Assembly: GCF_001719615.1 (NCBI RefSeq)
Contig: NZ_MDVX01000002.1
Span: 186,001-250,000 of the forward strand
Source of the DNA: Neptunicoccus sediminis
Lineage (GTDB): Bacteria > Pseudomonadota > Alphaproteobacteria > Rhodobacterales > Rhodobacteraceae
DNA length: 64,000 nt
Direction of reading: 5' to 3'
This document shows positions 46,258-61,708 of this stretch, one piece after another. How positions within the stretch are numbered: position 1 is the first letter of the stretch; the number at the start of each line of letters is the position of its first letter. The notes below the pieces were generated by a model. It did not search any database and was not told the origin of the DNA. It worked only from the letters and a program-made list of their open reading frames with translations. The translations under genes and the position numbers were made by a program.

Positions 46258-47394
46258 TTACGGCAGGTCCACCCATGCGGCATTTCGCCCAGAGGACCGC
46301 ACGCAGGCGTCAATAAATTCAACGCCTTTCAATCCGTCCTGCACGGTGGGAAAAACCACGTCCTGCGGGATTGGCTGGTCATTCCGACGGGCGAGTATCG
46401 CTTCGGCTGCTTCGGTATAGATGGCGGCGAATCCTTCGAGATAGCCTTCGGGATGACCCGGCGGAATGCGCGAAACTCGGTTCGCGGCAGCACCGGACCC
46501 GGCCCCGCCCCGCGTGATCAGGCGCTTTGGCTCTCCAAAGGGTGTGAACCACAGATAGTTCGGGTCTTCCTGCGCAAATTCCAGCCCGCCCTTGGTGCCG
46601 TAAACCCGCAACCTCAGCGCGTTTTCATTGCCCGGTGAGACTTGCGAACTCCACAACATGCCCCGCGCCCCGCCTTTCCAGCGCAACAGAACATGGGCGT
46701 TGTCATCCACCCGCCGCCCCGCAACAAAGCTCTGCATGTCCGCGGAAAGGGATTCCAGCTCCAGCCCCGTCACAAAACAGGCGAGGTTATAGGCATGGAC
46801 GCCAATATCCCCGATAGACCCGCCTGCCCCGCTGCGGTCCGGATCGGTGCGCCAGTCGGCCTGTTTGTTGTGCACCTCCTCGGTCATCCAGTCCTGCGGA
46901 TATTCCACCTGCACCACGCGGATTTCGCCCAATTCGCCAGAAGCAATCATTTCGTGCGCCTGCCTTACCATTGGAAAACCGGTGTAATTATGGGTCAGCA
47001 CAAACAGCGCGTCAGATGCTTCGGCCGCTTTAACCAATTTGCGCGCATCAGGCAGAGTAGAGGTCAGCGGCTTGTCGCAGATCACGTGGATGCCCCGTTT
47101 CAGAAACTCCCGCGCGGCAGCGTAATGGACGTGGTTTGGCGTCACGATCGACACTGCTTCGATCCCGTTCTTCAGCCGTGCCTCGCGGATTGCCATCTGC
47201 TTGAAGTCATCGTAGGTGCGATCCGGCGCAAGGCCAAGGGCCGCACCGCTCGCCCTTGCCTTTTCAGGGGTAGAGGACAGCGCCCCTGCCACCAGTTCAA
47301 ACCTGTCGTCAATCCGCGCGGCAATGCGGTGGACCCCGCCAATAAAAGCGTCATTGCCACCGCCGACCATGCCCAATCTGATCCGTTCCGCCAT
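46258..47394 (-). CDS. Gfo/Idh/MocA family oxidoreductase
   Basis: 378 aa. N-terminal NAD(P) Rossmann domain (GMVGGGNDAFIGG; CDKPLTSTLPDARKLV with the EKP-equivalent Lys of the family) and a C-terminal alpha/beta domain with GSIGDIGVHAYNLA, where the conserved Asp and His of the active site sit. These enzymes oxidise hydroxyl groups of sugars, inositols or sugar acids. Last gene of a three-gene unit: its ATG overlaps the upstream isomerase stop by one base (TGATG). The substrate is unknown. Confidence 0.9.
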   Translation of the reverse strand: MAERIRLGMVGGGNDAFIGGVHRIAARIDDRFELVAGALSSTPEKARASGAALGLAPDRTYDDFKQMAIREARLKNGIEAVSIVTPNHVHYAAAREFLKRGIHVICDKPLTSTLPDARKLVKAAEASDALFVLTHNYTGFPMVRQAHEMIASGELGEIRVVQVEYPQDWMTEEVHNKQADWRTDPDRSGAGGSIGDIGVHAYNLACFVTGLELESLSADMQSFVAGRRVDDNAHVLLRWKGGARGMLWSSQVSPGNENALRLRVYGTKGGLEFAQEDPNYLWFTPFGEPKRLITRGGAGSGAAANRVSRIPPGHPEGYLEGFAAIYTEAAEAILARRNDQPIPQDVVFPTVQDGLKGVEFIDACVRSSGRNAAWVDLP

Positions 47395-48449
47395 CAGCCT
47401 ATCCCCAACATCTTGCGGTTTGCGGCCTCATCCGCGCCCCCGTCTGCGAAATCGTCAAAGGCTTTTTCCGTCACACGAATGATATGATCCTTCACGAATT
47501 GCGCCCCTTCCCGTGCCCCGTCTTCGGGATGCTTCAGACAGCATTCCCATTCCACAACGGCCCAACCGTCAAAGTCATTCGCCGCCATTTTGGAAAAGAT
47601 CGCTGCAAAATCCACCTGCCCATCCCCGAGCGAACGGAACCGCCCCGCGCGATTGACCCAAGGTTGATAGCCCGAATAAACGCCTTGCCGCCCCGTTGAA
47701 TTAAACTCTGCGTCCTTGACGTGAAACATCTTGATCCGGTCTTTGTAAATGTCGATGTTGTCAATGTAATCAAGGCATTGCAGCGCGTAATGGGACGGAT
47801 CATACAGCATGTTGCAGCGGGGATGATTGTCTACCCGCTCCAGAAACATTTCAAACGTGACACCATCGTGCAGGTCTTCGCCGGGATGGATTTCATAGCA
47901 AATATCAACACCGTTTTCATCAGCGTGATCCAGAATCGGACGCCAGCGGGCGGCCAGTTCGTCAAAGGCGGTTTCAATCAGCCCTTCGGGTCGTTGTGGC
48001 CAAGGGTAGACATAGGGCCAAGCCAAAGCGCCCGAAAAGGTCGCATGGGCCGTGATCCCCATATGACGAGAGGCAGAAATCGCCTTTTTCACCTGATCCA
48101 CCGCCCAAGCCTGCCGCGCCTTGGGATCACCGTGCACGGAAGGATCGGCAAAGCCGTCAAAGGCAGTGTCATAGGCTGGATGCACCGCCACCAATTGACC
48201 CTGCAGATGCGTCGAAAGCTCTGTTACCTCCACCCCGTTTTCCTGTGCCTTTCCCTTGAAGGTATCGCAGTAATCTTTTGATGTTGCAGCTTTTTCAAGA
48301 TCAATCAGACGGGCATCCCAACTGGGCACCTGCACCCCTTTATAGCCGCAATCTGCGGCCCATTTGGTGATCGAATCCCAAGAATTGAACGGGGCTTCGT
48401 CACCCGCGAACTGTGCCAGAAACAGGCCCGGCCCTTTGATGGTCTTCAT
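47394..48449 (-). CDS. Sugar phosphate isomerase/epimerase family protein
   Basis: 351 aa with a strong GGGAGGAA site. AP-endonuclease-2-like TIM barrel with the usual metal ligands in CYEIHPGEDLH, LYDPSHYAL, MFHVKDAEF and VVEWECC. It is longer than simple epimerases (about 280 aa) and belongs to a type usually found next to Gfo/Idh/MocA dehydrogenases, as here. It probably isomerises or epimerises the oxidised sugar. It lies 35 bases downstream of the ketose-3-epimerase-like gene. Confidence 0.88.
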   Translation of the reverse strand: MKTIKGPGLFLAQFAGDEAPFNSWDSITKWAADCGYKGVQVPSWDARLIDLEKAATSKDYCDTFKGKAQENGVEVTELSTHLQGQLVAVHPAYDTAFDGFADPSVHGDPKARQAWAVDQVKKAISASRHMGITAHATFSGALAWPYVYPWPQRPEGLIETAFDELAARWRPILDHADENGVDICYEIHPGEDLHDGVTFEMFLERVDNHPRCNMLYDPSHYALQCLDYIDNIDIYKDRIKMFHVKDAEFNSTGRQGVYSGYQPWVNRAGRFRSLGDGQVDFAAIFSKMAANDFDGWAVVEWECCLKHPEDGAREGAQFVKDHIIRVTEKAFDDFADGGADEAANRKMLGIG

Positions 48450-48484
48450 GATGTTTCCTCCCTCATTCCTATCATTTGGTAATT

Positions 48485-49351
48485 TTACAGCACCGTCAGG
48501 CCCGCCTTATCCATACAGGCGCGAATATGGGCATACCCCTCGCGGTAGACCTGTTCGGGGCTGTCGGCAAAATCGCGCCAGACCTTCGTGGCGGCGGCAA
48601 GGTCGGGCAGCCCGCGCCCGAAGGCCTCTATCGTCAGCCAATCGTCATATCCGCTCCGGGCAATTGCCGCGAAAGTCTCGGCCCACGAAATATTTCCCCG
48701 CCCCGGCACGCCACGGTCATTCTCGGAGATGTGGATATGGCTGATCATATCGGAGTTGCGGATCAGCGCCCCGACCGGATCGGTTTCCTCTATATTGGCG
48801 TGGAACGTGTCGTACATGGCGGTGATATTGGGATGGTCGAGCGCTCGCAGATGATCGCAAAGCGCATCCATTGTGTTGAACAGATAGCATTCAAAACGGT
48901 TCAGCGCTTCCAGCCCGACCACAATCCCATGACCTGCCGCCAAATCCCCGATCTGCAACTGGGTATCGCGGAAATAGTCGAGCTCGGCCCCTGTCGGCCC
49001 CGCGCCGCTAAACAGGCCCAGCGTGGAGTGAAGCGGCCCGCTGATCTGATCCGCCCCCAGCGCGGCGGTGCATTCCAGCGCCCAGTCCATATAGTCCACG
49101 CCAGCCTTGCGCGTGGTGGCCTGCGGTGAAATCAGGTTCACCGAAGGATCCCCCATCGCCGTGACCGCCGTGCGCTCTAACCCGATCCGGTCAAGCATGA
49201 CAGCGATTTGCCGGTACTCCTCGGGCGTGCCTTCGAAAACGGGGATCTCCACCCCGTCAAATCCGGTGTCGCGGAGGGCCGTTAACAGGGATTCGTGCTG
49301 TGGCGTGATGCGGGTGGTCCATAGAAACATGCACATTCCGATTTTCATCAT
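48485..49351 (-). CDS. D-tagatose/D-psicose 3-epimerase-like protein
   Basis: 288 aa; the first or second Met can be the start. The metal and catalytic residues Glu148, Asp181, His184, His207, Arg213 and Glu242 have exactly the spacing of Pseudomonas D-tagatose 3-epimerase (Glu152 to Glu246), in LEALNRFECYLFNT, YDTFHANIEE and HISENDRG. It is therefore predicted to epimerise a ketose or keto-sugar acid at C3 with Mn or Co. First gene of the minus-strand unit; an operator-like TGGTCATACCA lies 70 bases upstream. Confidence 0.88.
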   Translation of the reverse strand: MMKIGMCMFLWTTRITPQHESLLTALRDTGFDGVEIPVFEGTPEEYRQIAVMLDRIGLERTAVTAMGDPSVNLISPQATTRKAGVDYMDWALECTAALGADQISGPLHSTLGLFSGAGPTGAELDYFRDTQLQIGDLAAGHGIVVGLEALNRFECYLFNTMDALCDHLRALDHPNITAMYDTFHANIEETDPVGALIRNSDMISHIHISENDRGVPGRGNISWAETFAAIARSGYDDWLTIEAFGRGLPDLAAATKVWRDFADSPEQVYREGYAHIRACMDKAGLTVL

Positions 49352-49420: not shown

Positions 49421-49431
49421 TGGTCATACCA
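49421..49431. promoter_or_regulatory. GntR/FCD-type operator, copy 1
   Basis: TGGTCATACCA, a perfect 4-bp-arm palindrome with a 3-bp centre of the FadR-family operator form, 70 bases upstream of the minus-strand epimerase start. The same form recurs at 49588 and 59373. Confidence 0.6.
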
Positions 49432-49587
49432 AAATTGGCGAGCAGGTCAAAGCGAATTTATCAACAAACCAGACACCGCAGCCGCTCTACTCATAACAAT
49501 ATAAGCCATTATATCGCCTTGAGCGCAGAGAATGCGCGAATAAAGCCGAAAACCAGCCCTTGACCGTTTGGAAAATTCAATGCTATC

Positions 49588-49598
49588 TGGTCTAACCA
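49588..49598. promoter_or_regulatory. GntR/FCD-type operator, copy 2
   Basis: TGGTCTAACCA, same form as copies 1 and 3, 80 bases upstream of the plus-strand epimerase start. The regulator gene itself is the third gene of that operon, so this site would give autoregulation. Confidence 0.6.
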
Positions 49599-49677
49599 AT
49601 TTACACACTTCCCGACCGAAACACGATGACACGGCGGGACAATACGGGTGTGAAACAGACCTTCTGGGAGGACAGGA

Positions 49678-50565
49678 ATGCATCTTTCGACACACAACTG
49701 GATGCGGGCGGAACCGCTGGAAACGACGGTACGCCGGATCAAGCAATATGGTTATGAAAGCATCGAGATTTCGGGCGAGCCGGATCAATACGATACCAAG
49801 GAAACCCGCGCGCTGCTGAAAGATACCGGCATGCGGTGCTGGGGTGCTGTGACCCTGACACTGGGCGATCGCAACCTTGCAGCAAAGGATCAGGGCCAGC
49901 GGGAGCGCACGGTCGATTACGTCAAAAACGTGCTCACTATGGTGTCAGAGCTGGAGGGCGAGATTATCTTACTAGTGCCCGCAACCGTGGGTAAGGTTGT
50001 CCCCGACGGCACACCGGAAGAGGAATGGAAATGGGTGGTCGATGCCACACGGGAATGTTTCCATCACGCAAAGAAAGTCGGCGTCAAAATCGCCGTGGAA
50101 CCGCTGAACCGCTTTGAAACCTATCTGTTCAACCGCTGCGCACAGGCGCTGGCGCTGGCGGATGCGGTCAGTCCGGAGTGTGGCGTGTGCCTTGATGCGT
50201 TTCACCTCAATATTGAAGAAGACGATATATATGACGCGATCCGTCTTGCCGGTGATCGTCTGTTCGACTTCCACGTGGCCGACAACAACCGTTTTGCCGC
50301 TGGTCTCGGCCATCTGGACTGGCCCAAAATCGTCGGCACCCTAAAGGAAATCGGCTATGACGGTGCACTGACCAATGAGTTTGTCGCGCCGGTCGATCGC
50401 ACTCCGGCTGCGCCCTACCCCGATATGGTCGAGAAAAATCCGGTGGATATTTCCCCCGAGCAATTGAAGTTCATTGAGGATCACGGTTCTTCCCTGTTGT
50501 CCGAGGATTTCTACGCCCGGCAGATGGAAATCACTGCGGAAACACTGTTGCCGCTGATGAAGTAA
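49678..50565 (+). CDS. Sugar phosphate isomerase/epimerase family protein (ketose 3-epimerase-like)
   Basis: 295 aa behind GGGAGG. TIM barrel with Glu141 (AVEPLNRFETYLFN), Asp173 and His176 (LDAFHLNIEE), His199 and Arg205 (FHVADNNR) and Glu234 (TNEF). The pattern is close to that of D-tagatose 3-epimerases, although the C-terminal loop (DISPEQLKFIE) differs. It is the second such protein in the cluster, divergent from the first. First gene of a unit continuing with the enolase-superfamily gene. Confidence 0.87.
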   Translation: MHLSTHNWMRAEPLETTVRRIKQYGYESIEISGEPDQYDTKETRALLKDTGMRCWGAVTLTLGDRNLAAKDQGQRERTVDYVKNVLTMVSELEGEIILLVPATVGKVVPDGTPEEEWKWVVDATRECFHHAKKVGVKIAVEPLNRFETYLFNRCAQALALADAVSPECGVCLDAFHLNIEEDDIYDAIRLAGDRLFDFHVADNNRFAAGLGHLDWPKIVGTLKEIGYDGALTNEFVAPVDRTPAAPYPDMVEKNPVDISPEQLKFIEDHGSSLLSEDFYARQMEITAETLLPLMK

Positions 50566-50639
50566 ACGGGGTCCGCCCTGTTCCTGTCCGGGCGCGTCAA
50601 CTCCCTGCGCGTCCGGCTCAAATAACCCGAGGATACATC

Positions 50640-51809
50640 ATGCGCATAAAGTCGGCTCAGGCCTGGTGGGTGCAGATTCCAATCGAAACCGAACAACAGC
50701 ATGTCAGCGATTTCGGTCGTCTGCGCACCTTTGATGCAGCGATCCTGCGGCTGGAAACCGACGACGGTCTTGTCGGATGGGGCGAAGGCAAGAATGCGGC
50801 GGGCAGTGCGGGCAATTACGGGACGCTGGTGCATCTGCTCAATCACGAATTCGGCCCCCGCATCATCGGCCGCGATCCGGCGGATGTTTCAATCGTCTGG
50901 GAGGATCTTTATAACGGCGTGCGGGCAGAGAAATCTGCATTGGCGGGCCATTCCATGCCCGATTTCGCGCGGCGCGGCATGTCCATCGCGGCAATCAGCG
51001 CCATCGACATTGCGCTTTGGGATATACTTGGGAAATCCGACAACAAACCTGTTTGGCAGCTTTTGGGCGGGCGCAAGGCGGACCGGATGCAGGCCTATGC
51101 TTCGGGGGGTTGGGCCGATAAGGACAATATTGGCGAACAATTACAATCCTATATCGACAAAGGCGGCTTCAGGGCTGTGAAGATGCGGGTCGGCGCGATG
51201 GACCCTTCCCCGCATGGCTCCGCAGAGCGGGTTCTCGCGGCACGCAAGGCGCTGGGGCCGGATGTGGAGATTATGGTTGACGCCCACGGCACCTTTACCG
51301 TCGCAGGTGCCAGACGCTTTGCCCATTTGTGCCGCGATGCGGATCTGGCGTGGTTTGAAGAACCTGTGAGCGGAGACGACAAACAGGGCATGGCCGAATT
51401 GCGGGCCAGCACCCATATCCCCATCGCGGCAGGAGAATCCGAGTCGACCCGCTTTGATTTCCGCGATCTCGCGACCCTGCGCTCGGTGGATATTTTCCAG
51501 CCCGATCCGGCCAATTGCGGCGGTATTTCCGAGGCCATGAAAATCGGCACATTGGCCAGCGCCTTTAACCTGCGACTGGCCCCCCATCTTTGGGCGGGTG
51601 CACCTTGTTTCTTTGCAGGGCTTCAGGTCTGCGCCGCCTCTCCTGCGGCATTTACCGTTGAATTCTCGCTCGGGGCTAATCCGATGATCCATGAATTATC
51701 CAACGCACCCGTCACTGTCAGCGATGGTATGATTGCATTTCCCGAAACTCCGGGTATAGGGTTAGATATGAACGAGGCCGCCGTCAGAGCCTACGCTATT
51801 CAGGGGTAA
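50640..51809 (+). CDS. Mandelate racemase/muconate lactonizing enzyme family protein
   Basis: 389 aa, enolase superfamily. Capping domain (1-125), then the barrel with Lys181-Met-Arg183, metal ligands Asp214 (VDAHG), Glu240 or Glu241 (FEEP) and Glu266 (AGES), and the Asp289/His316 dyad (QPDPANCGG, APHLW). This places it in the mandelate racemase subgroup, where most members dehydrate sugar acids to 2-keto-3-deoxy acids. Sugar-acid dehydratase is thus the best guess. The GntR gene starts 1 base after its stop. Confidence 0.88.
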   Translation: MRIKSAQAWWVQIPIETEQQHVSDFGRLRTFDAAILRLETDDGLVGWGEGKNAAGSAGNYGTLVHLLNHEFGPRIIGRDPADVSIVWEDLYNGVRAEKSALAGHSMPDFARRGMSIAAISAIDIALWDILGKSDNKPVWQLLGGRKADRMQAYASGGWADKDNIGEQLQSYIDKGGFRAVKMRVGAMDPSPHGSAERVLAARKALGPDVEIMVDAHGTFTVAGARRFAHLCRDADLAWFEEPVSGDDKQGMAELRASTHIPIAAGESESTRFDFRDLATLRSVDIFQPDPANCGGISEAMKIGTLASAFNLRLAPHLWAGAPCFFAGLQVCAASPAAFTVEFSLGANPMIHELSNAPVTVSDGMIAFPETPGIGLDMNEAAVRAYAIQG

Positions 51810-51810
51810 A

Positions 51811-52509
51811 ATGCAGGAAAATCAGTTCCTTCCCACATTGGCCAGCTATCTGTTGAAGGTGGCAAAATCCAACTCGGGCAAAGCGCCCTCAGAGCGGGAA
51901 CTGGCAGAACATTTTGAAGTCAGCCGCGGGCAAATCCGCGAGGCGCTGGCCATTCTCGAAGCGATGGAGCTGATCGAACGGCGTGCCAAATCGGGGATTT
52001 ACGTGCGGGAAAACCAGCACGGGATCGAGCAGATGGCCTTTTATGCCCGCGCCGGCATCCCGCTGGAGCCGCTACAGATTTACGAAGCGGTTGAAGTGCG
52101 TAAAATCCATGAAATTCAGGCAGCAGAGCTGGCGGCTGAACGGGCGACAGAGGAAAATTTTGAACGTCTGCGCGAGATACTGAAAGCCTCGGAACAACGG
52201 ATTGCTGACGGCGAAGGGCTTTTGGGGCTCGACCATGAATTCCACCTTGAAATCGTGCGGGCGACGCAAAACTCTATTTTTCACAACATCTGTTCTACCT
52301 TCTATGTCCTGAGCGAGAACCGCCTGCCGGTCTATTTTGAAAAGGAAGAGCGCAGCCGCAAATCCCATGCGGATCACATGCAAATCTTCGATGCGCTGGT
52401 CCACCGGGACGGGACATTGGCTAAGGCGCTGATGAATTCCCATCTGCGCAATGCCCGCAGCTACTGGACAGAGCTGCTGGAACCCGCCGGTGACACCACC
52501 CCCACCTAA
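51811..52509 (+). CDS. GntR family regulator, FCD domain, of the sugar cluster
   Basis: 232 aa. Winged helix at residues about 5-70 (SERELAEHFEVSRGQIREALAILE) and an FCD domain with the Asp/His metal-site pattern (LDHEFHLEIVRAT, HADHMQIFDAL). It lies inside the catabolic operon, directly after the enolase gene, and is followed by a dehydrogenase. It is the most likely binder of the three TGGTNNNACCA sites, acting as a repressor released by a pathway acid. Confidence 0.9.
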   Translation: MQENQFLPTLASYLLKVAKSNSGKAPSERELAEHFEVSRGQIREALAILEAMELIERRAKSGIYVRENQHGIEQMAFYARAGIPLEPLQIYEAVEVRKIHEIQAAELAAERATEENFERLREILKASEQRIADGEGLLGLDHEFHLEIVRATQNSIFHNICSTFYVLSENRLPVYFEKEERSRKSHADHMQIFDALVHRDGTLAKALMNSHLRNARSYWTELLEPAGDTTPT

Positions 52510-52522
52510 CCGGAGCCCTGTT

Positions 52523-53509
52523 ATGCCCGAGACCCCTGTGATTTTCTCAACCCACAGCCTGCACCCTGACGTGACCACCGATCTGGCCCGTCTTGGCACG
52601 TTGAAAACCGCCTCTGCCCCCACACCCGAGGCAATCCTTGCGGAAAGTGTCGGAGCGAATATCATCATCGTGCGCGCCCCGATCCCACCCGAGATTGTCA
52701 CGCGGGAACAAGGTCTTATGGCAACTGTACGTCACGGCGCAGGGTTGGATATGATTCCGATGGAGGCTTGCACCGAAGCCGGCGTCATGGTCACAAACGC
52801 GCCCGGTGCCAATGCGGTGACGGTAGCAGAGCACGCCATCTGGTCGGCCATGTCGCTGCTGCGCAAAAACCCGATGGTCACGCGGGACCTGCATGAAGGG
52901 GGCTGGGAACACGGCCGCCGCCACGCGGCTTTCGGGCAGGAAATTTCGGGTCGCACCCTTGGCATCCTCGGGTTTGGCAATATCGGCACGGCCCTGGCGG
53001 GCATGGCGCAAAACGGCTTTGGCATGTCGGTGATTTCCCACACGCGCAGCCCTGATAAACTGCCTGAAACTGTGGAGTCTGTGTCCCTGCCCGAGCTGTT
53101 GAAACGGGCTGATATTCTGGTGCTCAGCTGTCCGCTGACCGATGCTACCCGCGGCCTGATCGACAGGGCGGCGATCCAGTCCATGAAGTCGGGCGCAATC
53201 CTTGTGAATGTTGCGCGCGGCCCTGTGGTCGAAGAAGACGCCCTGATCGAAGCGCTGCAATCGGGGCATTTGGGCGGCGCGGCGATAGACGTTTTCGCCA
53301 AGCAACCCCTGCCCATCGACCACCCGTTGATGGCCCTTGGCAATGTGGTGCTGACGCCCCATATTGCAGGGCTTACGCAGGAAAGCATGCTGCGTCTGGG
53401 GCGCAAGGTGACGGAGATCACCGGACAGATTCTCGCAGGACACACGCCGGATAATCTGTGCAATCCGGAGGTTCTGCCAACCTATAAGGCGCGGTTTCCC
53501 GCGCTCTGA
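52523..53509 (+). CDS. D-2-hydroxyacid dehydrogenase family protein
   Basis: 328 aa from MPETPVIF with CGGAG upstream. NAD-binding GFGNIG at 150-155 (LGILGFGNIG), catalytic Arg232 (NVARGP) and His280 (LTPHIAG). The usual catalytic Glu of the EP motif is Gln261 (DVFAKQPLP), as in formate dehydrogenases and some other relatives. It probably interconverts a 2-keto acid and a hydroxy acid, or oxidises a sugar acid. End of the plus-strand unit. It is convergent with the ABC transporter genes. Confidence 0.88.
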   Translation: MPETPVIFSTHSLHPDVTTDLARLGTLKTASAPTPEAILAESVGANIIIVRAPIPPEIVTREQGLMATVRHGAGLDMIPMEACTEAGVMVTNAPGANAVTVAEHAIWSAMSLLRKNPMVTRDLHEGGWEHGRRHAAFGQEISGRTLGILGFGNIGTALAGMAQNGFGMSVISHTRSPDKLPETVESVSLPELLKRADILVLSCPLTDATRGLIDRAAIQSMKSGAILVNVARGPVVEEDALIEALQSGHLGGAAIDVFAKQPLPIDHPLMALGNVVLTPHIAGLTQESMLRLGRKVTEITGQILAGHTPDNLCNPEVLPTYKARFPAL

Positions 53510-53514
53510 GCGTG

Positions 53515-54582
53515 TCAGGCATAGGCCAGATTGCGTCCGCTTTTCTGGTCGAATAACAACACTTTATCCGCTTTCCAGCCAAAGCGGACCGCGTCATCCA
53601 GCGCCACTTTCATCTGTGCTGAGACGGTCGCATGCAGGCGGTTCTGCCCCACGTCGATTGTCAGAATTTTGATAACGCCGTGATCTTCCACGTCAAACAC
53701 TCGCCCCTGCACCGGAGCGCCGCTTTCGAGCACAAGATCTTCGGGCCGCACTCCGAATTTCAGGGGCTGGTCGATGGCCCCGCCACTGGCGGTCACAGGC
53801 AGGCTGAATCCGTCGCTGATACGGGCCTGTCCGCCCTCTAGTGTGCCGTCCATGAGGTTCATCGGAGGTGTGCCCACAGCCCCCGCAACAAAGGTGTTGA
53901 GCGGATTGTCGTAGATGTCCGACGGCGTGCCCACCTGCACCAGCTTGCCTTTATTCAAAACACCGACTTTGTCGCCCATAGACATGGCCTCAATCTGGTC
54001 ATGGGTGACAAACACAAAGGTCGCGCCCAGTTCATTGTGCAGCTTCTTCAGCTCTACCCGCAACACGTCGCGCAGGTTGGCATCCAGCGCCGAGAGCGGC
54101 TCGTCCATCAGGAACACGCGGGGTTCGCGCACGATGGCCCGCCCGATCGAAACGCGCTGCATCTCGCCGCCCGACAGACGCTCTACCTTACGATCCAGCA
54201 GACGGGTGATTTGCAGGGTTTCCGCCGCTTTCTCTACCCGCTCTTTGATCTGCTCGGGCGTGAAGTTCTGGGTGCGGGATTTCAGTGGAAACTCCAGATT
54301 GCCCCGCACGGTCAGCCGCGGATAGAGCGAATATTGCTGCAACACCAGCGCTACATCCCGCTGCGCGGCATTCCAGTTGGTTGCATCCATACCGTCGATC
54401 AGAACCTTGCCGGACTCCGGTTCCTCCAGCCCTGCGATCACCCGCAGGGTCGTGGTTTTGCCCGCGCCCGTCTGGCCCAGAAGAACGAAAAATTCACCGT
54501 CCTTGATCTCCAGATCCAGATCGCGCAACGCGCGGTTCGGTCCGAAACTTTTGTTAATCCCCTGAAGCGTAATATCGGCCAT
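53515..54582 (-). CDS. Sugar ABC transporter ATP-binding protein (MalK/UgpC type), distal
   Basis: 355 aa. Walker A GQTGAGKTT, signature LSGGEMQRVSIG, Walker B VFLMDEPLSALDA and a C-terminal TOBE/regulatory domain (about 240-350). It energises the CUT1 importer encoded upstream. It is one of two different ATPases in the operon, suggesting an ATPase heterodimer. Its start overlaps the stop of the preceding ATPase gene by one base. Confidence 0.93.
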   Translation of the reverse strand: MADITLQGINKSFGPNRALRDLDLEIKDGEFFVLLGQTGAGKTTTLRVIAGLEEPESGKVLIDGMDATNWNAAQRDVALVLQQYSLYPRLTVRGNLEFPLKSRTQNFTPEQIKERVEKAAETLQITRLLDRKVERLSGGEMQRVSIGRAIVREPRVFLMDEPLSALDANLRDVLRVELKKLHNELGATFVFVTHDQIEAMSMGDKVGVLNKGKLVQVGTPSDIYDNPLNTFVAGAVGTPPMNLMDGTLEGGQARISDGFSLPVTASGGAIDQPLKFGVRPEDLVLESGAPVQGRVFDVEDHGVIKILTIDVGQNRLHATVSAQMKVALDDAVRFGWKADKVLLFDQKSGRNLAYA

Positions 54583-55682
54583 CAGTTCGCCCCTCTTAAA
54601 TTCAGCCCCGTCGCCCCGTCAAAGAAATGGGCCTGCGCCGGATCAATATTTACAAACACTTGCTGGCCTTCCCGCGCGACGTAGCCGCTCTCGGTGCGGG
54701 CCCGCAGCACGGTTTCCCCGATAAGGACATCCACAATGTCATGACTGCCAAGCGGTTCGATATTGCTGGTCTGCGCGGCCAAGTAGCCCTCTTTCGCCTC
54801 ATGGGAGAGGATCACCGCCTCAGGCCGCACGCCGAGCGATACCGGCTGGCCCGTGTTGCGCACATGGTTGATCATTTGCTCGGGGAAGTGAAAACCGGTT
54901 TCGGCCCCGCCGATCAGCACCGAAGACTGACCGTTCACCCCTGCAAATGACGCCGCATTAATGTTCATCACCGGACTGCCGACAAATTTGGCGACAAAGG
55001 CGTTGGTTGGGTGCAGGTAGACCTCCTCCGGTGCGCCGACCTGTTGCAGCACGCCGTCATGCAGGATCACGATGCGATCCGCCAGCGACATGGCTTCGAC
55101 CTGATCGTGAGTCACATAAACCGAGGTAGACCCCCGCGCGATATGCAGGCGTTTGATTTCCGCACGCATCTGTTCGCGCAATTTCGCATCAAGCACGCCA
55201 AGCGGTTCATCCATTAACAACGCCTTGGGACGACGCACCAGCGCACGGCCAATCGCAACCCGCTGCATATCCCCACCGGACAGCGCGGAAGGCTTGTTAT
55301 CCAGATGCTCGGTGATTTGCAGCACTTCGGCCACCTCGTTCACCGCCTTTTCCCTATCCGCAGCCCCCATACGAACGGCGCGCAGCGGAAAGGAGATATT
55401 CTCCCGCACAGTCATATGCGGGTAGAGCGAGAAAGACTGGAACACAAAGGCAATATCGCGGTCGGCGGCCTTTTTGCCCTGCATCTCCACCCCGTCGATC
55501 AGGATCTGGCCGGAGGTGACAGTCTCCAGCCCCGCAATCGCCCGCAGCGCCGTTGTCTTGCCGCCGCCGGATTGCCCCAGCATCACAACGAACTCTCCGT
55601 CTTCAATTGTCAGATCCAGATCTTTCAGCACCTGATTGGCGCCAAAAAATTTCTGCACGTTGCGCATGTCTATCTGTGCCAT
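54582..55682 (-). CDS. Sugar ABC transporter ATP-binding protein (MalK/UgpC type), proximal
   Basis: 366 aa. Walker A GQSGGGKTT, signature LSGGDMQRVAIG, Walker B ALLMDEPLGVLDA, followed by a TOBE domain. It is clearly diverged from the next ATPase, so they are not a recent duplication. It overlaps both neighbouring genes by one base, so translation is coupled along the operon. Confidence 0.93.
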   Translation of the reverse strand: MAQIDMRNVQKFFGANQVLKDLDLTIEDGEFVVMLGQSGGGKTTALRAIAGLETVTSGQILIDGVEMQGKKAADRDIAFVFQSFSLYPHMTVRENISFPLRAVRMGAADREKAVNEVAEVLQITEHLDNKPSALSGGDMQRVAIGRALVRRPKALLMDEPLGVLDAKLREQMRAEIKRLHIARGSTSVYVTHDQVEAMSLADRIVILHDGVLQQVGAPEEVYLHPTNAFVAKFVGSPVMNINAASFAGVNGQSSVLIGGAETGFHFPEQMINHVRNTGQPVSLGVRPEAVILSHEAKEGYLAAQTSNIEPLGSHDIVDVLIGETVLRARTESGYVAREGQQVFVNIDPAQAHFFDGATGLNLRGAN

Positions 55683-55969
55683 CAGACGATCCCCCCGTCC
55701 TTATAGGTGCCTTTTTCGCGTACATCGTCCGGTTCATCCCCATGCAGTTCCAGCACATCGGCGCTTTCCCCGACGAAATCATCCTGAATTGGGGCGTCAG
55801 GACTAATTTTCGATGTCACCAGAAAGGCGATCAGTCCGAACAGCGTCATGGTCAGCCCGTAGCGGTGGAAAAACTCGCTCCACGGCTGGCAAAGCGCGAT
55901 AATCCCGAGGATCATCAGCGTCTGCGCACCGGGGGCCAGAAAGCGGTAGTTCAATTCTCGAAAACTCAT
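55682..55969 (-). CDS. Small two-helix membrane protein of the ABC operon
   Basis: 95 aa with two hydrophobic helices (residues about 15-30 and 36-52) and an acidic C-terminal tail (FVGESADVLELHGDEPDDV). It overlaps the permease gene upstream by 4 bases and the ATPase gene downstream by one, so it is certainly a member of the operon. Short extra membrane proteins (for example DUF2160 in glycerol transporters) occur in some two-ATPase CUT1 systems. I cannot confirm that this is the same family. Function unknown. Confidence 0.8.
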   Translation of the reverse strand: MSFRELNYRFLAPGAQTLMILGIIALCQPWSEFFHRYGLTMTLFGLIAFLVTSKISPDAPIQDDFVGESADVLELHGDEPDDVREKGTYKDGGIV

Positions 55970-56928
55970 TTGCGGATTGCTCCAAAGGACATGCCGCGCA
56001 GCAGGTGATTGCGCAGAAGGAAGGTGAAAATTGCCACGGGGATCAGGAACAGGAAGGTGCCTGCCGCAATCACGGTCCAGTCCGGCAGGCCGGAACCAAC
56101 CTGTGACGGAATATAGGGCGGCGCGGTCTGCGCGTTGCGGTTGGTCATGATCAGCGCGAAGGCGTATTCATTCCAAGCGGTGATAAAACAGAACACCGCA
56201 GTTGCCGCCATGCCGGTCAGGGCTTCGGGCAGAACCACCTTAAAGAAAGCTTGTATGCGGGTGTAGCCATCCACAAGGGCGGCTTCTTCGTATTCGCGGG
56301 GGATCTCGTCGATAAACCCCTTCATAATCCAGACTGCAAAGGACAGGTTGAAGGCGGTATAAAGGATGATCAGCCCCATATGGGTGTCATTCAATCCGAC
56401 CACGCGGTACATCAGAAACATCGGGATTGCGACGACGACGGGCGGCAGCATCCGTGTCGAAAGGATGAAGAACAGCCAGTCATCCTCTCCGGCGACCTTG
56501 AAGCGGCTGAATCCGTAGGCGGTTAACGTCCCCATCCCCACCGCCAGAATGGTCGAGATGACCGAGACAATCAGCGAGTTTTTGAAGCGGTCGCCATAGC
56601 CGGAGGAGCGAACCTCGCCCGACTTGCGGTTGCGCACGACTTTCTCGCCGCCGTCGAACACCATCTGCTCCCACCACGGGGCGTTGTCGTATTCCTCTTG
56701 GGTGGGTTGTTCACGCAACTGGCTGCGTTTGGTGAACAATTTCACAAAGGGCGCAACGGTCGGCTCGTACACAACCGTCGGCGGAATGGTTGTGGCCAGA
56801 TTACGGGGTTTGAACGCTGTCGCCGCGATCCAATAGATCGGGGTCAGCATGATAATCAGGGCAACAAACACGGCGGCAATCGCGGTGCGGTTGGTCCATT
56901 TTTCTGCAGATGTCTGAACGCCGGCCAT
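55966..56928 (-). CDS. Carbohydrate ABC transporter permease (MalG type)
   Basis: 320 aa, six membrane helices. The EAA loop EYEEAALVDGYTRIQAFFKVVLP, between residues about 205 and 240, contacts the ATPase. An unusually long periplasmic segment (about residues 37-110, including REQPTQEEYDNAPWWEQM) follows the first helix. It forms the channel with the MalF-type permease encoded 1 base upstream. Confidence 0.92.
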   Translation of the reverse strand: MAGVQTSAEKWTNRTAIAAVFVALIIMLTPIYWIAATAFKPRNLATTIPPTVVYEPTVAPFVKLFTKRSQLREQPTQEEYDNAPWWEQMVFDGGEKVVRNRKSGEVRSSGYGDRFKNSLIVSVISTILAVGMGTLTAYGFSRFKVAGEDDWLFFILSTRMLPPVVVAIPMFLMYRVVGLNDTHMGLIILYTAFNLSFAVWIMKGFIDEIPREYEEAALVDGYTRIQAFFKVVLPEALTGMAATAVFCFITAWNEYAFALIMTNRNAQTAPPYIPSQVGSGLPDWTVIAAGTFLFLIPVAIFTFLLRNHLLRGMSFGAIRK

Positions 56929-56929
56929 A

Positions 56930-57835
56930 TTAACGCGCCTTCACTTTATTGAGGTATTTCACATAGATATTGGTAATCGCCACCACCATGATCAGCACGA
57001 TATAGGCAAATGCCGAAGACATGCCGGTCTGCCATTCCTGAAACGCCATCTTGTACAGACGGATGGCAATCAGCTCGGTCGTGGGCTGGGAGGACAGCAC
57101 ATAAGCCAGATCAAAGGTCTTGAAGGCCTCCATCGTGCGGAAAATGATCGCAATCATCAGGATCGGTGCCACCAGCGGCAAGGTGATGCGGAAAAAAGTG
57201 TAGATATTGCCCGCACGGTCAATCTCGGCAGCTTCATACAGATGCTTTGGCACTGCAGACAGGCCCGCCAACGACAGCAGCATCACAAAGGGCGACCACA
57301 TCCAGATATCCACAATGGCAATTGCCCAAAGCGCCATATCCGGATCGGCAAGCCACTCGAATTTACCCAGTCCCAGAAAATAGTTGATGATCCCGAAGTT
57401 CGGATCATAAAGCAGCTTCCAGAACAGCCCCACAACGGCCATGGACAGCATCATCGGCAGCAACAAAAGTGTGGTAATTAGCCCCTTCGCCGGAATTGCG
57501 CGGTTCAGCAGCATGGCAAGGCCAAAGCCCACTACCACCTGCCCTGTAACGGAAATCAGCACATATTTCGCGGTGATCGAGAAGTTCTTCCAGATAAACG
57601 GATCATTCAGCAGGTCGCGGTAGTTTTGCAGACCGACAAATTTCGCAGGCGCGTTTGTCGAGGCGCGGAAATCCGTAAAGGAATAGCCAAGCGAATAGAG
57701 CAGCGGGAAGATATTGAATATAATCAGAAAAGCGATGGTCGGGATTATAAACAGGTTGCGGATCGACAGGTCGCTAAGCCCTCTGGAGGCCGCCTGAGAA
57801 TTCGGGTCAAGCCGGGTCATGTTATTCGTCGGCAC
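56930..57835 (-). CDS. Carbohydrate ABC transporter permease (MalF type)
   Basis: 301 aa, six membrane helices starting about residue 28. The EAA loop is HLYEAAEIDRAGNIYTFFRITLP. N-terminal residues are polar and cytoplasmic. It pairs with the MalG-type permease downstream. It is separated from the binding-protein gene by 97 bases that contain a stem-loop. Confidence 0.92.
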   Translation of the reverse strand: MPTNNMTRLDPNSQAASRGLSDLSIRNLFIIPTIAFLIIFNIFPLLYSLGYSFTDFRASTNAPAKFVGLQNYRDLLNDPFIWKNFSITAKYVLISVTGQVVVGFGLAMLLNRAIPAKGLITTLLLLPMMLSMAVVGLFWKLLYDPNFGIINYFLGLGKFEWLADPDMALWAIAIVDIWMWSPFVMLLSLAGLSAVPKHLYEAAEIDRAGNIYTFFRITLPLVAPILMIAIIFRTMEAFKTFDLAYVLSSQPTTELIAIRLYKMAFQEWQTGMSSAFAYIVLIMVVAITNIYVKYLNKVKAR

Positions 57836-57887
57836 GGGGCATTCCTTCTTGGCTCGTTCTGATCAAATGGACGGTGGTTCGGGAATA

Positions 57888-57907
57888 AGGGGCGCCGCAG
57901 CGCCCCT
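57888..57907 (-). terminator. Intercistronic stem-loop between binding protein and permease genes
   Basis: Arms AGGGGCGC (57888-57895) and GCGCCCCT (57900-57907) with a 4-base loop and no T-run. In ABC operons such hairpins after the binding-protein gene stabilise or attenuate the transcript, giving more binding protein than permease. That role is inferred from position. Confidence 0.55.
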
Positions 57908-57932
57908 GATGATCGTTCCACATCGCGCAGCG

Positions 57933-59243
57933 TTATTGACCGCGACCGTATTTCTTGAAGGTGGCTTCCCAGTCAGCGGCCAGCGCATCGAGCGTTTCCT
58001 TGGCCGTACCTTCGTCCCCGACAATGAACGGGTAAAGACGCTGGTTGGCAGAGGTCAGTAGTTCCGCAAATTCAGGAACAGCCCAGAAATCTTTGACCTT
58101 GAACATGGTCTGGTAAAACGCTTCATTATACGGGGTCGCCTGACGGAACTCGTCAGATTCCAGCACCGCAGCGCTGGCCGTATACCCACCGAGTTCAGCC
58201 CAGCGTTTCTGGGTCTCATCCTTGATAAACCACTCAAGGAAATCCATCGCCATGTCCTGATTTTCAGAGTATTTCACAACCGAAATCCCCTGACCGCCAA
58301 GCGCCGCAAACTGGTCGCCGTCCGGTCCGGCCGGATTGGCAAAAAAGCCGGTGTTGGCTGCATGGGGGTTGGTGGCCTCATTCAAAAGTGCGGGAAAAAA
58401 GGCGAAGTAATTCATCGACATGGCCACAAGACCCTCGGTGATTGCCTGATTGTTTTCCACAAAGAATGTCTTGGCCCAACCCGGCGGCGTATAGCTGTAC
58501 AACTTCTTGTAGTTCTCCAGCGCGGCAACCGCCTTGTCGCTGTTTACATAGCCGTCCACTTCATAGGTTTCAAAGTTGCCCAGATCCGCCCCGTAAGAGA
58601 AGATCGCGTTTTCGACCCCCATGACCATCGCGTCATAGCTGTTGTCGGTATAGATCGCGATGCCGTAGCGGTCTTCGTCGGGACGGTGGAAGAATTCGGC
58701 AATATCAGTCAGTTCAGCCCATGTTTTCGGGGGGGCAAGGTCATAGCCGTATTTGGCCTTGAACGCCTCCATTTCAGCCGGATCCTCGAACCAGTCCTTG
58801 CGGTAAGACCAGCCGACAGCATCACCTTCGGCAGGAATGGCCCAGTATTTGCCAGAGTTACCGGGGTATTCGGCATAATATTTGACCGTCGCCGGTGCCA
58901 TCACTTCACCAAGGTTGTTTTCCTTGAAAAACTCGGTGAGATCCACGTAATGACCGCCCTCGGACGCCGCGCCCAGCCACTGACTGTCCCCCACGATCAT
59001 GTCATAGGCACTGCCACGGGCGTTAAATTCTGTAAACGCTTTGGTTTGGAAATCCGCCCAAGGCGTCGTTTCCACCGTCACCGAAATGCCGGTTTCCTCT
59101 TCATATTCATTAACAAGCTCTTGCAGGAAGTTGGCAGGGTCCCATTCCGCCCAGAATATCACCAGATCTTCCGCGGTGGCAGATGTCGCCATCAAAGCCG
59201 AAAGCGCGGCCCCGGCAAGCAGGCCAGACATGTTACGTTTCAT
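57933..59243 (-). CDS. ABC transporter substrate-binding protein (sugar, CUT1 type)
   Basis: 436 aa starting at MKRNMSGL behind GGGAGGAAC. Much longer upstream frame is open but is leader sequence. Signal peptide residues 1-24 (cleaved near TATAED). Family 1 extracellular solute-binding protein with IFWAEWDPANFLQELVNEYEEETG at the first lobe and many surface Trp/Tyr residues suited to sugar binding. First gene of the importer operon. An operator-like TGGTAATACCA lies 130 bases upstream. The substrate is unknown. Confidence 0.93.
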   Translation of the reverse strand: MKRNMSGLLAGAALSALMATSATAEDLVIFWAEWDPANFLQELVNEYEEETGISVTVETTPWADFQTKAFTEFNARGSAYDMIVGDSQWLGAASEGGHYVDLTEFFKENNLGEVMAPATVKYYAEYPGNSGKYWAIPAEGDAVGWSYRKDWFEDPAEMEAFKAKYGYDLAPPKTWAELTDIAEFFHRPDEDRYGIAIYTDNSYDAMVMGVENAIFSYGADLGNFETYEVDGYVNSDKAVAALENYKKLYSYTPPGWAKTFFVENNQAITEGLVAMSMNYFAFFPALLNEATNPHAANTGFFANPAGPDGDQFAALGGQGISVVKYSENQDMAMDFLEWFIKDETQKRWAELGGYTASAAVLESDEFRQATPYNEAFYQTMFKVKDFWAVPEFAELLTSANQRLYPFIVGDEGTAKETLDALAADWEATFKKYGRGQ

Positions 59244-59647
59244 AAGTTGTTCCTCCCAAATGTGCAGTGATCGTCCGGCAGTTTCCCCTGCGGCTCCTAG
59301 TCTCCATTCGCCCTGCTCTGCGACCCTTGGTGAATTGCAGAATACAAGGGTTTTCGTCTCCCGTGTTACTTTTGGTAATACCAGATAAACCCCCAAGTCA
59401 AGGAATTGTTTTGAAGGCCGCCAATCGCAACTTCTGCAGTAAAAGCAGGCAAAATCCCTTAATTTTAGCTGAAAATCTCCGGACGACCCGTTTGCAAGCC
59501 TTCGGCATTCCAAAAAATAGGGCTTTACGACTCGCCGCAAATTTGCCCACTCTGGCCGGACCAGATAATAGCGAGAGCGGCGAGAACACGTGGGGCGGGC
59601 GTGGGATTTTCCGTGAACGCGCCATGGTTGAAACGGGAGGGTTTCAC
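59244..59647. other. Divergent region between importer and Tm-1-like operons
   Basis: 404 bases without a convincing gene. It holds one TGGTNNNACCA palindrome at 59373 and an inverted repeat ACCCTTG/CAAGGGT (59323-59329 and 59345-59351) between that site and the importer start. It also holds a ribosome site GGGAGGG ahead of the Tm-1-like GTG. In-frame extensions of both flanking genes cross it but look non-coding. Confidence 0.65.
59373..59383. promoter_or_regulatory. GntR/FCD-type operator, copy 3
   Basis: TGGTAATACCA, same form as the sites at 49421 and 49588, 130 bases upstream of the binding-protein gene and 265 bases upstream of the Tm-1-like gene. It links the importer, and perhaps the divergent operon, to the same regulator. 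Confidence 0.6.
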
Positions 59648-60862
59648 GTGTCCAAACTCTATCTTGTCGGCACATTCGACACAAAATCCAAAGAGCTCGG
59701 GTATCTGGCGACCCTGCTGCGGCGCGGTGTGTTGCCGGTCGTGACGGTTGATCTTTCCACCCAAAAACCGGCCGAGGCTGCGGATGTGGCGGATGTTTCG
59801 GCGCAGGCGGTAGCCGCCTGTCACCCTGAAGGTGCGGATCATGTGCTGGGCGGTTCTGATCGCGGCGCGGCTGTCAAAGCGATGGCAGAGGCTTTTGCCC
59901 GCTTTTGCATCAGCCGCCAGAATGACATAAGCGCGATGATCGGGATTGGCGGTGGCGGTGGCAGTGCGATGGTCAGCGAAGGGATGCGCGCCCTGCCCTA
60001 CGGCCTGCCCAAACTGCTGGTGACAACGCTCGCCTCTGGCGACATGGCGCCCTATATCGGCAGTTCCGATACCATCGTCATTCCTTCCGTAACCGATCTG
60101 GCCGGACTGAACCGCCTGAGCCGCAATATTCTTCACAACGCGGCGCAAGCGTTGATCGGGATGACGGCCAGTCCCTACCTGCGCCCGATTGTCGAAAAAG
60201 AGTCGCTCGGCCTGTCCATGTTCGGTGTCACCACCCCTTGCGTCACGCAAATCACCGCACAGATGAAGCCGGATTACGATTGCGTCGTGTTTCACGCCAC
60301 CGGCACCGGCGGGCGGACATTAGAAAGCTTGCTGGACAGCGGCTATCTGTGCGGGGTGATGGATATGACCCTGACGGAAATTGCCGACGAACTGGTGGGC
60401 GGTGTTTTGCCTTCCGGTCCGGCGCGGCTTGATGCTGTGTGCCGCGCCCGAAAGCCCTGGGTCGGTGCGCCCGGTGCGGTGGATATGGTGAACTTCTGGG
60501 CGCCGGATACCGTGCCGGAGAAATTCGCAGACAGGCTGTTTTACAACCACAACGCAAATGTCACCCTGATGCGCACCACGCCGGACGAAAACGCGCAAAT
60601 CGGCGCGTGGATCGCGGCCAAGCTCAACAAATGCCGCGGGCCGGTGACACTTCTGATCCCCGAAGGCGGGGTTTCCGCGCTCGACATCAAAGATGGACCG
60701 TTTCACCACCCCGAGGCCAGCGCCGCACTTTTTGACACTCTGGACGCGAGATTTAAGCAAACCGCACAGCGTAAACTCGTCCGCCTGCCCCACCACATCA
60801 ATGATCCCGCGTTTTCGGCTGCCGCCGTAGACGCCTTTCAATCCCTGCAACAGGACCCATAA
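59648..60862 (+). CDS. Tm-1-like ATP-binding domain protein (UPF0261)
   Basis: 404 aa from a GTG (MSKLYLVG) with GGGAGGG upstream. An ATG 24 bases earlier is also in frame. The UPF0261 domain shows GTFDTKSKELGYL, IGIGGGGGSAMV, TLASGDMAPYIGSSD and PSVTDLAGLNRLSRNIL. In plants the Tm-1 virus-resistance protein joins this domain to the one encoded by the next gene. The enzymatic role is unknown; an ATP-dependent or acyl-type reaction on a sugar-derived acid is a guess from context. Confidence 0.88.
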   Translation: MSKLYLVGTFDTKSKELGYLATLLRRGVLPVVTVDLSTQKPAEAADVADVSAQAVAACHPEGADHVLGGSDRGAAVKAMAEAFARFCISRQNDISAMIGIGGGGGSAMVSEGMRALPYGLPKLLVTTLASGDMAPYIGSSDTIVIPSVTDLAGLNRLSRNILHNAAQALIGMTASPYLRPIVEKESLGLSMFGVTTPCVTQITAQMKPDYDCVVFHATGTGGRTLESLLDSGYLCGVMDMTLTEIADELVGGVLPSGPARLDAVCRARKPWVGAPGAVDMVNFWAPDTVPEKFADRLFYNHNANVTLMRTTPDENAQIGAWIAAKLNKCRGPVTLLIPEGGVSALDIKDGPFHHPEASAALFDTLDARFKQTAQRKLVRLPHHINDPAFSAAAVDAFQSLQQDP

Positions 60863-60865
60863 TCC

Positions 60866-61708
60866 ATGCCCTATATTGATCGTGCCAGCATTCTGGAAAA
60901 ATTCGCCAACATGATCGCGGACAACCGACCCATTATCGGCGGTGGTGCCGGTACCGGTCTGTCAGCAAAATCTGAAGAAGCCGGCGGCATCGACCTGATT
61001 ATCATCTACAATTCAGGCCGTTACCGCATGGCAGGGCGCGGCTCGGCGGCGGGTCTGCTCGCCTATGGCAATGCCAACGAGATCGTTAAGGAAATGGCGG
61101 TCGAAGTCCTGCCCGTTGTCAAACACACGCCGGTTCTGGCGGGGGTGAACGCCACTGACCCTTTCATCCTGATGCCGCAGTTTCTGGCTGAACTGAAGGC
61201 GATGGGCTTTGCCGGCGTGCAAAACTTCCCCACGATCGGGCTGTTCGACGGTATGATGCGCCAGAGCTTTGAGGAAACCGGAATGGGCTACGGGCTGGAG
61301 GTGGACATGATCCAGCAGGCCCATGGCATCGACCTGCTGACCACCCCCTATGTATTCAACCCCGACGAGGCCATCGCCATGACCAAGGCTGGCGCTGATA
61401 TAATTGTGGCCCATATGGGGGTGACTACGGGGGGCGCAATCGGCGCAACTTCGGCCAAATCGCTGGATGACTGCGTGGCCGAAATTGACGTCATTGCCGC
61501 TGCTGCCCGTTCAGTGCGCGAGGATGTGATCATTCTGTGCCACGGCGGACCGATCAGCATGCCCGATGATGCCGCCCATGTGCTGAAACACTGCGACCGC
61601 TGCCACGGGTTCTACGGGGCCAGCAGTGCCGAACGCCTGCCAGCAGAAACCGCCATCCGCGACCAGATCAAAGATTTCAAAGCCATCGACACGACATCAA
61701 AAGGATAA
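60866..61708 (+). CDS. Phosphoenolpyruvate hydrolase family protein (TIM barrel)
   Basis: 280 aa. It matches the PEP_hydrolase domain that forms the C-terminal half of Tm-1 proteins: [50 protein letters not shown] and [14 protein letters not shown]. The fold is a barrel related to PEP mutase/isocitrate lyase-like enzymes that make or break C-C or C-P bonds next to a carboxylate. It follows the UPF0261 gene by 3 bases, so the two products very likely act together. Confidence 0.88.

Follow-up and report, generated by a model that had tools for sequence, protein, structure and literature searches.

We analyzed a 64,000-nucleotide stretch of the Neptunicoccus sediminis genome (contig NZ_MDVX01000002.1, positions 186,001 to 250,000; hereafter the window, whose own numbering is used throughout), in which a predicted sugar-acid locus carries the gene for a GntR/FCD regulator at 51811–52509. 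Our results indicate that this locus is very probably a local, autoregulated regulon with four operators, repressed by the FCD/GntR protein, with a sugar acid as the predicted releasing effector. A first-pass annotation of the window had proposed a local regulon defined by three copies of the palindrome TGGTNNNACCA. That proposal was largely correct and even too modest, there being four candidate operators in one compact regulon with a conserved consensus; the fourth site, at 59553, was absent from its list. The initial hunch, built on three motifs, has grown into a regulon model that can be tested, with four operators, a regulator that is named, a consensus sequence, and defined promoter candidates. 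The four sites and the regulator gene are:

49421–49431, minus strand: candidate operator site 1, TGGTCATACCA; predicted to serve the operon reading from 49351 to 46258; weight-matrix score 25.2
49588–49598, plus strand: candidate operator site 2, TGGTCTAACCA; predicted to serve the operon reading from 49678 to 53509, which contains the regulator gene; weight-matrix score 23.6
59373–59383, minus strand: candidate operator site 3, TGGTAATACCA; predicted to serve the operon of the solute-binding protein (SBP) and ATP-binding cassette (ABC) transporter; weight-matrix score 25.2
59553–59563, plus strand: candidate operator site 4, TGGCCGGACCA, with one mismatch; centre 66 bases upstream of the start of the UPF0261 gene
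51811–52509, plus strand: GntR/FCD regulator (Pfam FCD 2.6e-23, GntR 1.9e-11), predicted binder of the four sites

The consensus at the matching promoter positions of orthologous loci was AATCTGGT-N3-ACCAGATT, which over 36 sites read on both strands became nnnAATCTGGTnnnACCAGATTnnn. These candidates have the operator form of the FadR subfamily (a palindromic TKGT-N2/3-ACMA with A/T-rich flanks), and the Pfam matches to GntR and FCD likewise bore out the first-pass suggestion of FadR/FCD-type operators with such a regulator encoded at 51811.

Exact palindromes between divergent genes

An exact scan of the window for TGGTNNNACCA found three matches, at 49421, 49588 and 59373, just as the first-pass annotation had listed them, and all three lay where it had placed them, inside two gaps between divergent genes of the sugar locus (326 bases between 49351 and 49678, and 380 bases between 59243 and 59624). 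Its estimate of about one chance match per 64 kb was also sound, with a mean of 0.84 in 100 dinucleotide shuffles of the window and an expectation of ~0.75 per 64 kb from the whole-genome count. The bare palindrome is weak evidence, and alone it would not have carried the claim of a regulon; its position between divergent genes is the better clue. Equal frequency of the sites inside genes had been named as grounds for abandoning that claim. The three window sites are intergenic; elsewhere the bare 11-mer lies mostly in genes, and a rough test put 30 of the 42 further exact matches genome-wide in gene-like frames (in controls it called gene-like 133 of 140 positions in known genes and 19 of 80 in two spacers, and wrongly did so for window site 49421). 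A half site, TGGTAA, that had been pointed out at 48477 does exist, as one of 19 copies over the two strands of the window, with no listed window profile match nearby, and we regard it as noise.

Conservation in orthologous loci

We drew relatives from a genome-collection scan (5 relatives) and from two genome searches, a family draw of 394 genomes and an order draw of 390, in which the regulator was present in 8 and 6 genomes, respectively (overlapping sets). These provided 12 orthologous Rhodobacteraceae loci, including those of Amylibacter cionae, Shimia abyssi and Tropicibacter, with regulators that were 59–95% identical and a gene order that was mostly conserved. L020 (Brevibacterium, 34% identity) was excluded, and L048, L068 and L069 were also left out. 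L061, a contig of 4,304 bases, was omitted from the word control for the divergent region of sites 1 and 2 (divergon 1) and from all counts for that of sites 3 and 4 (divergon 2); L063 lies on a contig without divergon 2, another contig of the same genome being L076. In L061, L062 and L063 the gene adjoining operator 1 was replaced and the operator retained, in L057, L060 and L067 a single gene of the minus-strand operon was matched, and no PEP_hydrolase gene was found in the examined stretch of L060.

With the window included, all 13 loci had an exact site 1, and all 12 that were counted for site 3 had it in exact form; site 2 was exact in 12 of 13, the copy in L057 carrying one mismatch. A counterpart of site 4 was present in 12 of 12 loci, exact in two (L062 and L076) and with one mismatch in the other ten. 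Among the 311 gapped 4-N3-4 words of the window's divergon 1, TGGT-N3-ACCA alone occurred in all 12 loci counted (window included, L061 omitted), followed by its own shifted versions, a word overlapping site 1 (5/12), and the best non-overlapping word (4/12). In divergon 2 it occurred in 11 of 11 loci, as did one shifted version, and the best non-overlapping word reached 5 of 11. The spacers between paired operators aligned barely above shuffled sequence, the mean z being 0.85 for one set of 28 pairs, of which one exceeded 3, and 1.6 for the other set of 21, of which two did. Around distant SBP homologues (46–49% identity; a subset of the lower-identity matches), none of 23 loci contained the exact palindrome. 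Judged by these alignments and counts, the comparative evidence for the sites is strong.

Searches with the window withheld

With the window, L016 and L017 withheld, 28 sites from 10 loci were used to train a weight matrix, which gave sites 1, 2 and 3 the scores listed above; among the other 42 exact palindromes of the genome the best score was 15.3 and the next 9.4. Extra palindromes found off the promoter positions (L016 430, L018 13692, L019 402 and L067 17789) or near the SBP start (L018 17340) scored below 8 and were not used in training. A profile, R1, trained on 36 sites of the same 10 loci (with the window and its two closest relatives withheld) listed four places in the genome of the window at E<=5 from the 150 of 722 first-look candidates that were scored. 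All four fell in the sugar locus, the fourth being 59553. The weight of this result is that the four places lie in one 10-kb locus with nothing else listed, and not the E-values themselves. The claim of a local regulon therefore stood, with conservation in 12 other loci and a profile that, trained without this locus, listed only this locus in the genome at E<=5, and the number of sites rose from three to four.

Across ten genomes searched with the profile, 43 places were listed, of which three were clearly elsewhere (G546 C10, G057 C1:220313 and G343 C11); the G343 match precedes a gene taken by eye for purL, and we regard it as chance. Eight of the ten genomes had contributed training sites (G546 being L018 by its coordinates), and G000 and G472 were out of sample. 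An operator-like site at G382 C33:89200 (locus L107, contig 33) lies directly upstream of an M24 peptidase gene, which suggests that the corresponding window gene, 61871–63040, belongs to the regulon.

The regulator and its co-inheritance with the transporter

The 51811–52509 protein combines an N-terminal winged helix with a C-terminal FCD domain (Pfam GntR 43.9 bits, cut-off 27; FCD 83.2 bits, cut-off 24.3) and has orthologues at the 12 loci. R29, R39, R43 and G62, as well as D141, H145, H189 and H211, are invariant in 13 of 13 orthologues, and an Asp/His set of this kind is typical of FCD metal sites. From residue numbering and similar spacing, we take the three arginines to be probable equivalents of FadR R35, R45 and R49, and the Asp/His residues probable equivalents of the metal ligands of CGL2915. 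The protein reached none of the NCBIfam cut-offs of its nearest models (NanR 103.7 of 260 bits, UxuR 83.7 of 442, ExuR 74.2 of 396, LldR 71.5 of 311, and PdhR 62.9 of 330). Its monomer model had a mean pLDDT (predicted local distance difference test) of 73.1, with residues 54–70 below 50. In Foldseek searches with this model the best matches were GntR-family proteins, with PmiR, NanR, GntR of S. agalactiae, DhdR and Atu1419 among the top. Full-length superpositions were poor (root-mean-square deviation mostly >10 Å, TM ~0.5), so the domain orientation in the model is not trusted; the FCD domain alone superposed on DhdR 9vkn at 2.6 Å over 136 columns.

In the family draw, the regulator was found at E<=1e-50 in 8 of 394 genomes, and a close SBP (at least 80% identity) in seven of these eight and in none of the other 386. 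In the eighth, G028, the contig ends inside the locus. Another 93 genomes had an SBP match at E<=1e-100, in each case with at most 49% identity. On these counts, the regulator and the close transporter are co-inherited.

Promoter geometry and proposed regulation

Candidate −35 elements precede three of the operators:

49446–49450, minus strand: TTGAC, −35 candidate 19 nt before operator 1; weakly supported
49560–49564, plus strand: TTGAC, −35 candidate 28 nt before operator 2; a normally spaced −10 overlaps the left arm of the operator
59397–59401, minus strand: TTGAC, −35 candidate 18 nt before operator 3; the operator lies in the spacer and −10

Ten of 12 loci shared the 28-nt distance at operator 2 (L063 had 14 nt, L062 no TTGAC), and ten of 11 shared the 18-nt distance at operator 3 (L057 had 30 nt). 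Before operator 1 the distance was 19 nt in 4 of 12 loci (the window, L016, L017 and L067) and 7 nt in L058. Because operators 2 and 3 lie over the spacer and −10 at a near-constant distance from TTGAC, we infer repression, and the position of the regulator gene in the operon behind site 2 argues for autoregulation. The effector is predicted to be a sugar acid, since a dehydratase-like gene is a neighbor and the FadR subfamily is reported to bind carboxylic acids (PMC4494728).

The observed sites, their conservation, the promoter geometry, and the co-inheritance together point to a mechanism in which binding, repression, operon extents and effector are inferred. The 51811–52509 protein, as a dimer or larger assembly, would bind the AATCTGGT-N3-ACCAGATT palindromes at the four operators of the two divergent promoter regions. 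At operators 2 and 3, and less clearly at 1, the bound protein would cover the spacer or −10 region of a TTGAC-type promoter and block RNA polymerase, silencing the catabolic operons 46258–49351 and 49678–53509 (the latter with the regulator's own gene), the ABC transporter operon 53515–59243, and the UPF0261/PEP_hydrolase operon 59624–61708, perhaps as far as 63040. A sugar acid or its dehydrated product, held in the FCD domain, would release the repressor.

Several results weigh against this proposal. At least three TGGTNNNACCA matches occurred in 9 of the 100 shuffles, and the genome-wide scan that the first-pass annotation had recommended found no enrichment in 3,862,086 bases, with 45 exact matches versus 61 for the reversed control, and 1272 versus 1716 when one mismatch was allowed. 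The own-genome profile E-values were modest (0.15 for site 1, 0.19 for site 3, 0.25 for site 2 and 1.5 for site 4), and the scoring behind them covered 150 of the 722 first-look candidates. Site 4 is weak, scoring 13.5 in the window and, at its weakest, 9.8 in L058, and 4 of the 23 distant SBP loci had profile matches of 12.9–14.0, equal in strength to window site 4. Several of the orthologous loci are close relatives. The TTGAC before operator 1 was seen in 5 of 12 loci and absent from 7, and the TTGAC distances are counts made without a chance control. Finally, the 51811 protein is assigned to the sites only by co-inheritance, related regulators share the core, and the genome has 14 FCD genes.

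The shuffle result and the missing genome-wide enrichment would suit an accident, with three 11-mer palindromes falling in the spacers by chance, but the sites are kept at matching positions in 12 further loci, and the profile searches with the window locus withheld contradict this explanation, to which we give a negligible probability. The sites might instead be operators for a different FCD regulator in this genome (PdhR-like, for instance), in which case the local gene would have some other or some further function. The 14 FCD genes, one of them in the window at 1193–1849, would allow for this, and E. coli PdhR recognises the same core. A global regulator, however, would be expected to have targets beyond the locus, and the profile listed no further own-genome place at E<=5 among the candidates scored. 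Moreover, the regulator gene and the sites stand together in 13 of 13 loci, rearranged ones included (the loci having been found through the regulator search). We therefore consider a different FCD regulator unlikely. It is very unlikely, in our judgment, that the FCD protein is an activator at these sites: although some FadR-subfamily proteins activate some of their targets, as FadR does at fabA and fabB, operators 2 and 3 lie downstream of −35, over the spacer and −10 at near-constant distance, which is a blocking position. Repression by the 51811–52509 protein is the explanation that we prefer.

A near-constant spacing between sites 3 and 4

The spacing between sites 3 and 4 was 171–186 bp (mean 178, standard deviation (SD) 3.6, 12 loci), versus 128–173 bp (SD 16, 13 loci) between sites 1 and 2, and the two variances differed (Levene p 0.0009, after the lists were thinned to 9 and 10). 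Two operators at a conserved distance in one promoter region, as described for the Agrobacterium fabrum FCD repressor Atu1419, were thus found at sites 3 and 4, the distance between sites 1 and 2 being variable. In 5 of the 11 fully covered loci (L018, L019, L058, L059 and L067) a TetR gene reading towards the SBP gene lies between site 4 and the UPF0261 gene (Pfam TetR_N was checked for L019 and L058, the other three being assigned by eye); it is absent from six, L076 included. Site 4 and the 3–4 spacing persist in the five TetR-bearing loci, which do not form one clade in a tree built from six proteins of 11 loci (L062 was chosen as the root, and one node had a support of 0.53). Because site 4 can hardly serve UPF0261 in these loci, it probably acts in part at the promoter of the transporter operon. 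The TetR-family gene may itself control UPF0261 in those five loci.

One refinement of the repressor model, which we regard as possible though not probable, is that a tetrameric regulator loops the paired operators 3 and 4 and so jointly controls the transporter promoter, site 4 serving as an auxiliary operator more than as the operator of UPF0261. The tighter spacing of this pair and the retention of site 4 at its distance despite the TetR insertion are in keeping with a loop, as is the precedent of Atu1419, for which a tetramer, a loop joining palindromes 190 bp apart, and binding to a degenerate partner palindrome are all reported (PMC7797058). However, helical phasing at 10.5 bp was weak (vector strength 0.39, or 0.43 without L016 and L017), L060 (171) and L076 (186) being off phase; the Levene p is optimistic because the loci are related; and the spread of distances from site 3 to the SBP start was not significantly wider than that of the 3–4 spacing (Levene p 0.15). 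By analogy with what is reported for Atu1419, the conserved spacing permits looping by a tetramer, and it adds this pair to the candidates for repression by an FCD protein through looping. The unusual feature, still hypothetical, is a pair of sites kept close to 178 bp apart in which one partner is weak throughout. More speculatively, and with considerable doubt, we propose that a tetrameric FadR-type (TGGT-N3-ACCA) repressor keeps the transporter promoter in a loop joining a strong operator to a consistently weak one ~178 bp upstream; where TetR is absent, the weak operator would also place UPF0261 and PEP_hydrolase under sugar-acid control. If so, regulon membership would shift by gene insertion or loss beside a fixed loop.

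Comparison with known FCD regulators

For the FadR subfamily, a TKGT/ACMA consensus with typically 3 nt between GT and AC is reported for DgoR, ExuR, FadR, GlcC, LldR and PdhR, and double-site divergons are described (Suvorova et al., 2015; PMC4494728); the PdhR box is given as AATTGGTnnnACCAATT (PMC7660256). With PdhR, LldR, GlcC, DgoR and ExuR the present system shares the FCD domain, an A/T-flanked TGGT-N3-ACCA palindrome, sites in divergent promoter regions, and a regulator gene inside one regulated operon. As a test of orthology to PdhR, NanR, UxuR, ExuR and LldR, the NCBIfam cut-offs gave a negative result, the regulator falling far below all of them; its predicted targets are a putative sugar-acid cluster. 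E. coli NanR, its best NCBIfam match (below the cut-off), has the PSEREL...R...REAL recognition segment in common with it; NanR is reported to bind direct repeats of TGGTATAW (PMC4494728), in contrast to the inverted repeats here. Atu1419, a VanR-type repressor, was among the Foldseek matches at 20–22% identity. Its paired palindromes 190 bp apart are reported to lie one on the −10 and one between −35 and −10, with a degenerate partner elsewhere (PMC7797058); its palindrome, ATGTATACAT, is unlike TGGT-N3-ACCA, and tetramer and loop were shown for Atu1419, compared with a sequence spacing here. The closest solved sequences, also among the best fold matches, are PmiR (7xp0 and 7xp1) and DhdR (9jpj, a DNA complex), at 20–26% identity. 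Among the open-licence papers listed in our searches, judged by titles and the starts of abstracts, none was found to describe this locus. The type of regulation is ordinary and well known, and the locus is a new example of it.

Genes of the sugar locus

The remaining genes of the locus, together with a second regulator elsewhere in the window, are:

46258–47394, minus strand: Gfo/Idh/MocA oxidoreductase
47394–48449, minus strand: xylose-isomerase-like TIM barrel, IolE-like, below cut-off
48485–49351, minus strand: xylose-isomerase-like TIM barrel, ketose 3-epimerase-like, below cut-off; first gene behind operator 1
49678–50565, plus strand: xylose-isomerase-like TIM barrel, ketose 3-epimerase-like, below cut-off; first gene behind operator 2
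50640–51809, plus strand: mandelate racemase/enolase-type protein, probable sugar-acid dehydratase
52451–53509, plus strand: D-2-hydroxyacid dehydrogenase; start codon uncertain, the open reading frame overlapping the end of the regulator gene
53515–54582, minus strand: ABC transporter ATP-binding protein, UgpC/MalK-like, below cut-off
54582–55682, minus strand: ABC transporter ATP-binding protein, UgpC/MalK-like, below cut-off
55682–55969, minus strand: small open reading frame of the transporter operon, between the permease and ATPase genes; product hydrophobic by eye
55966–56928, minus strand: ABC permease
56930–57835, minus strand: ABC permease
57933–59243, minus strand: SBP; first gene behind operator 3
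59624–60862, plus strand: UPF0261 (Tm-1 N-terminal-like) protein; first gene behind operator 4
60866–61708, plus strand: PEP_hydrolase-like protein
61871–63040, plus strand: M24/creatinase-type peptidase, possible distal member of the regulon
1193–1849, minus strand: second FCD/GntR regulator; nearest NCBIfam model phnR_burk, below cut-off

If the ATG at 52451 is the start of the dehydrogenase gene, 52451–52509 overlaps the regulator gene; in several relatives the homology begins 20–31 codons later. None of the enzymes of the locus reached a substrate-naming NCBIfam cut-off, and the solved proteins closest to the SBP bind a mixture of sugars, so we claim no substrate.

The UPF0261 protein passed two NCBIfam cut-offs, both named hypothetical protein, and its domain is termed uncharacterized in PMC5028733. 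UPF0261 and PEP_hydrolase, fused in plant Tm-1 and poorly understood, would here share their predicted regulator with genes for sugar-acid catabolism and transport, and this narrows the range of substrates to consider for them. Side by side at 59624–61708, the two proteins are relatives of the two halves of plant Tm-1, the nearest solved structures being tomato Tm-1 for UPF0261 and 2p10 for PEP_hydrolase.

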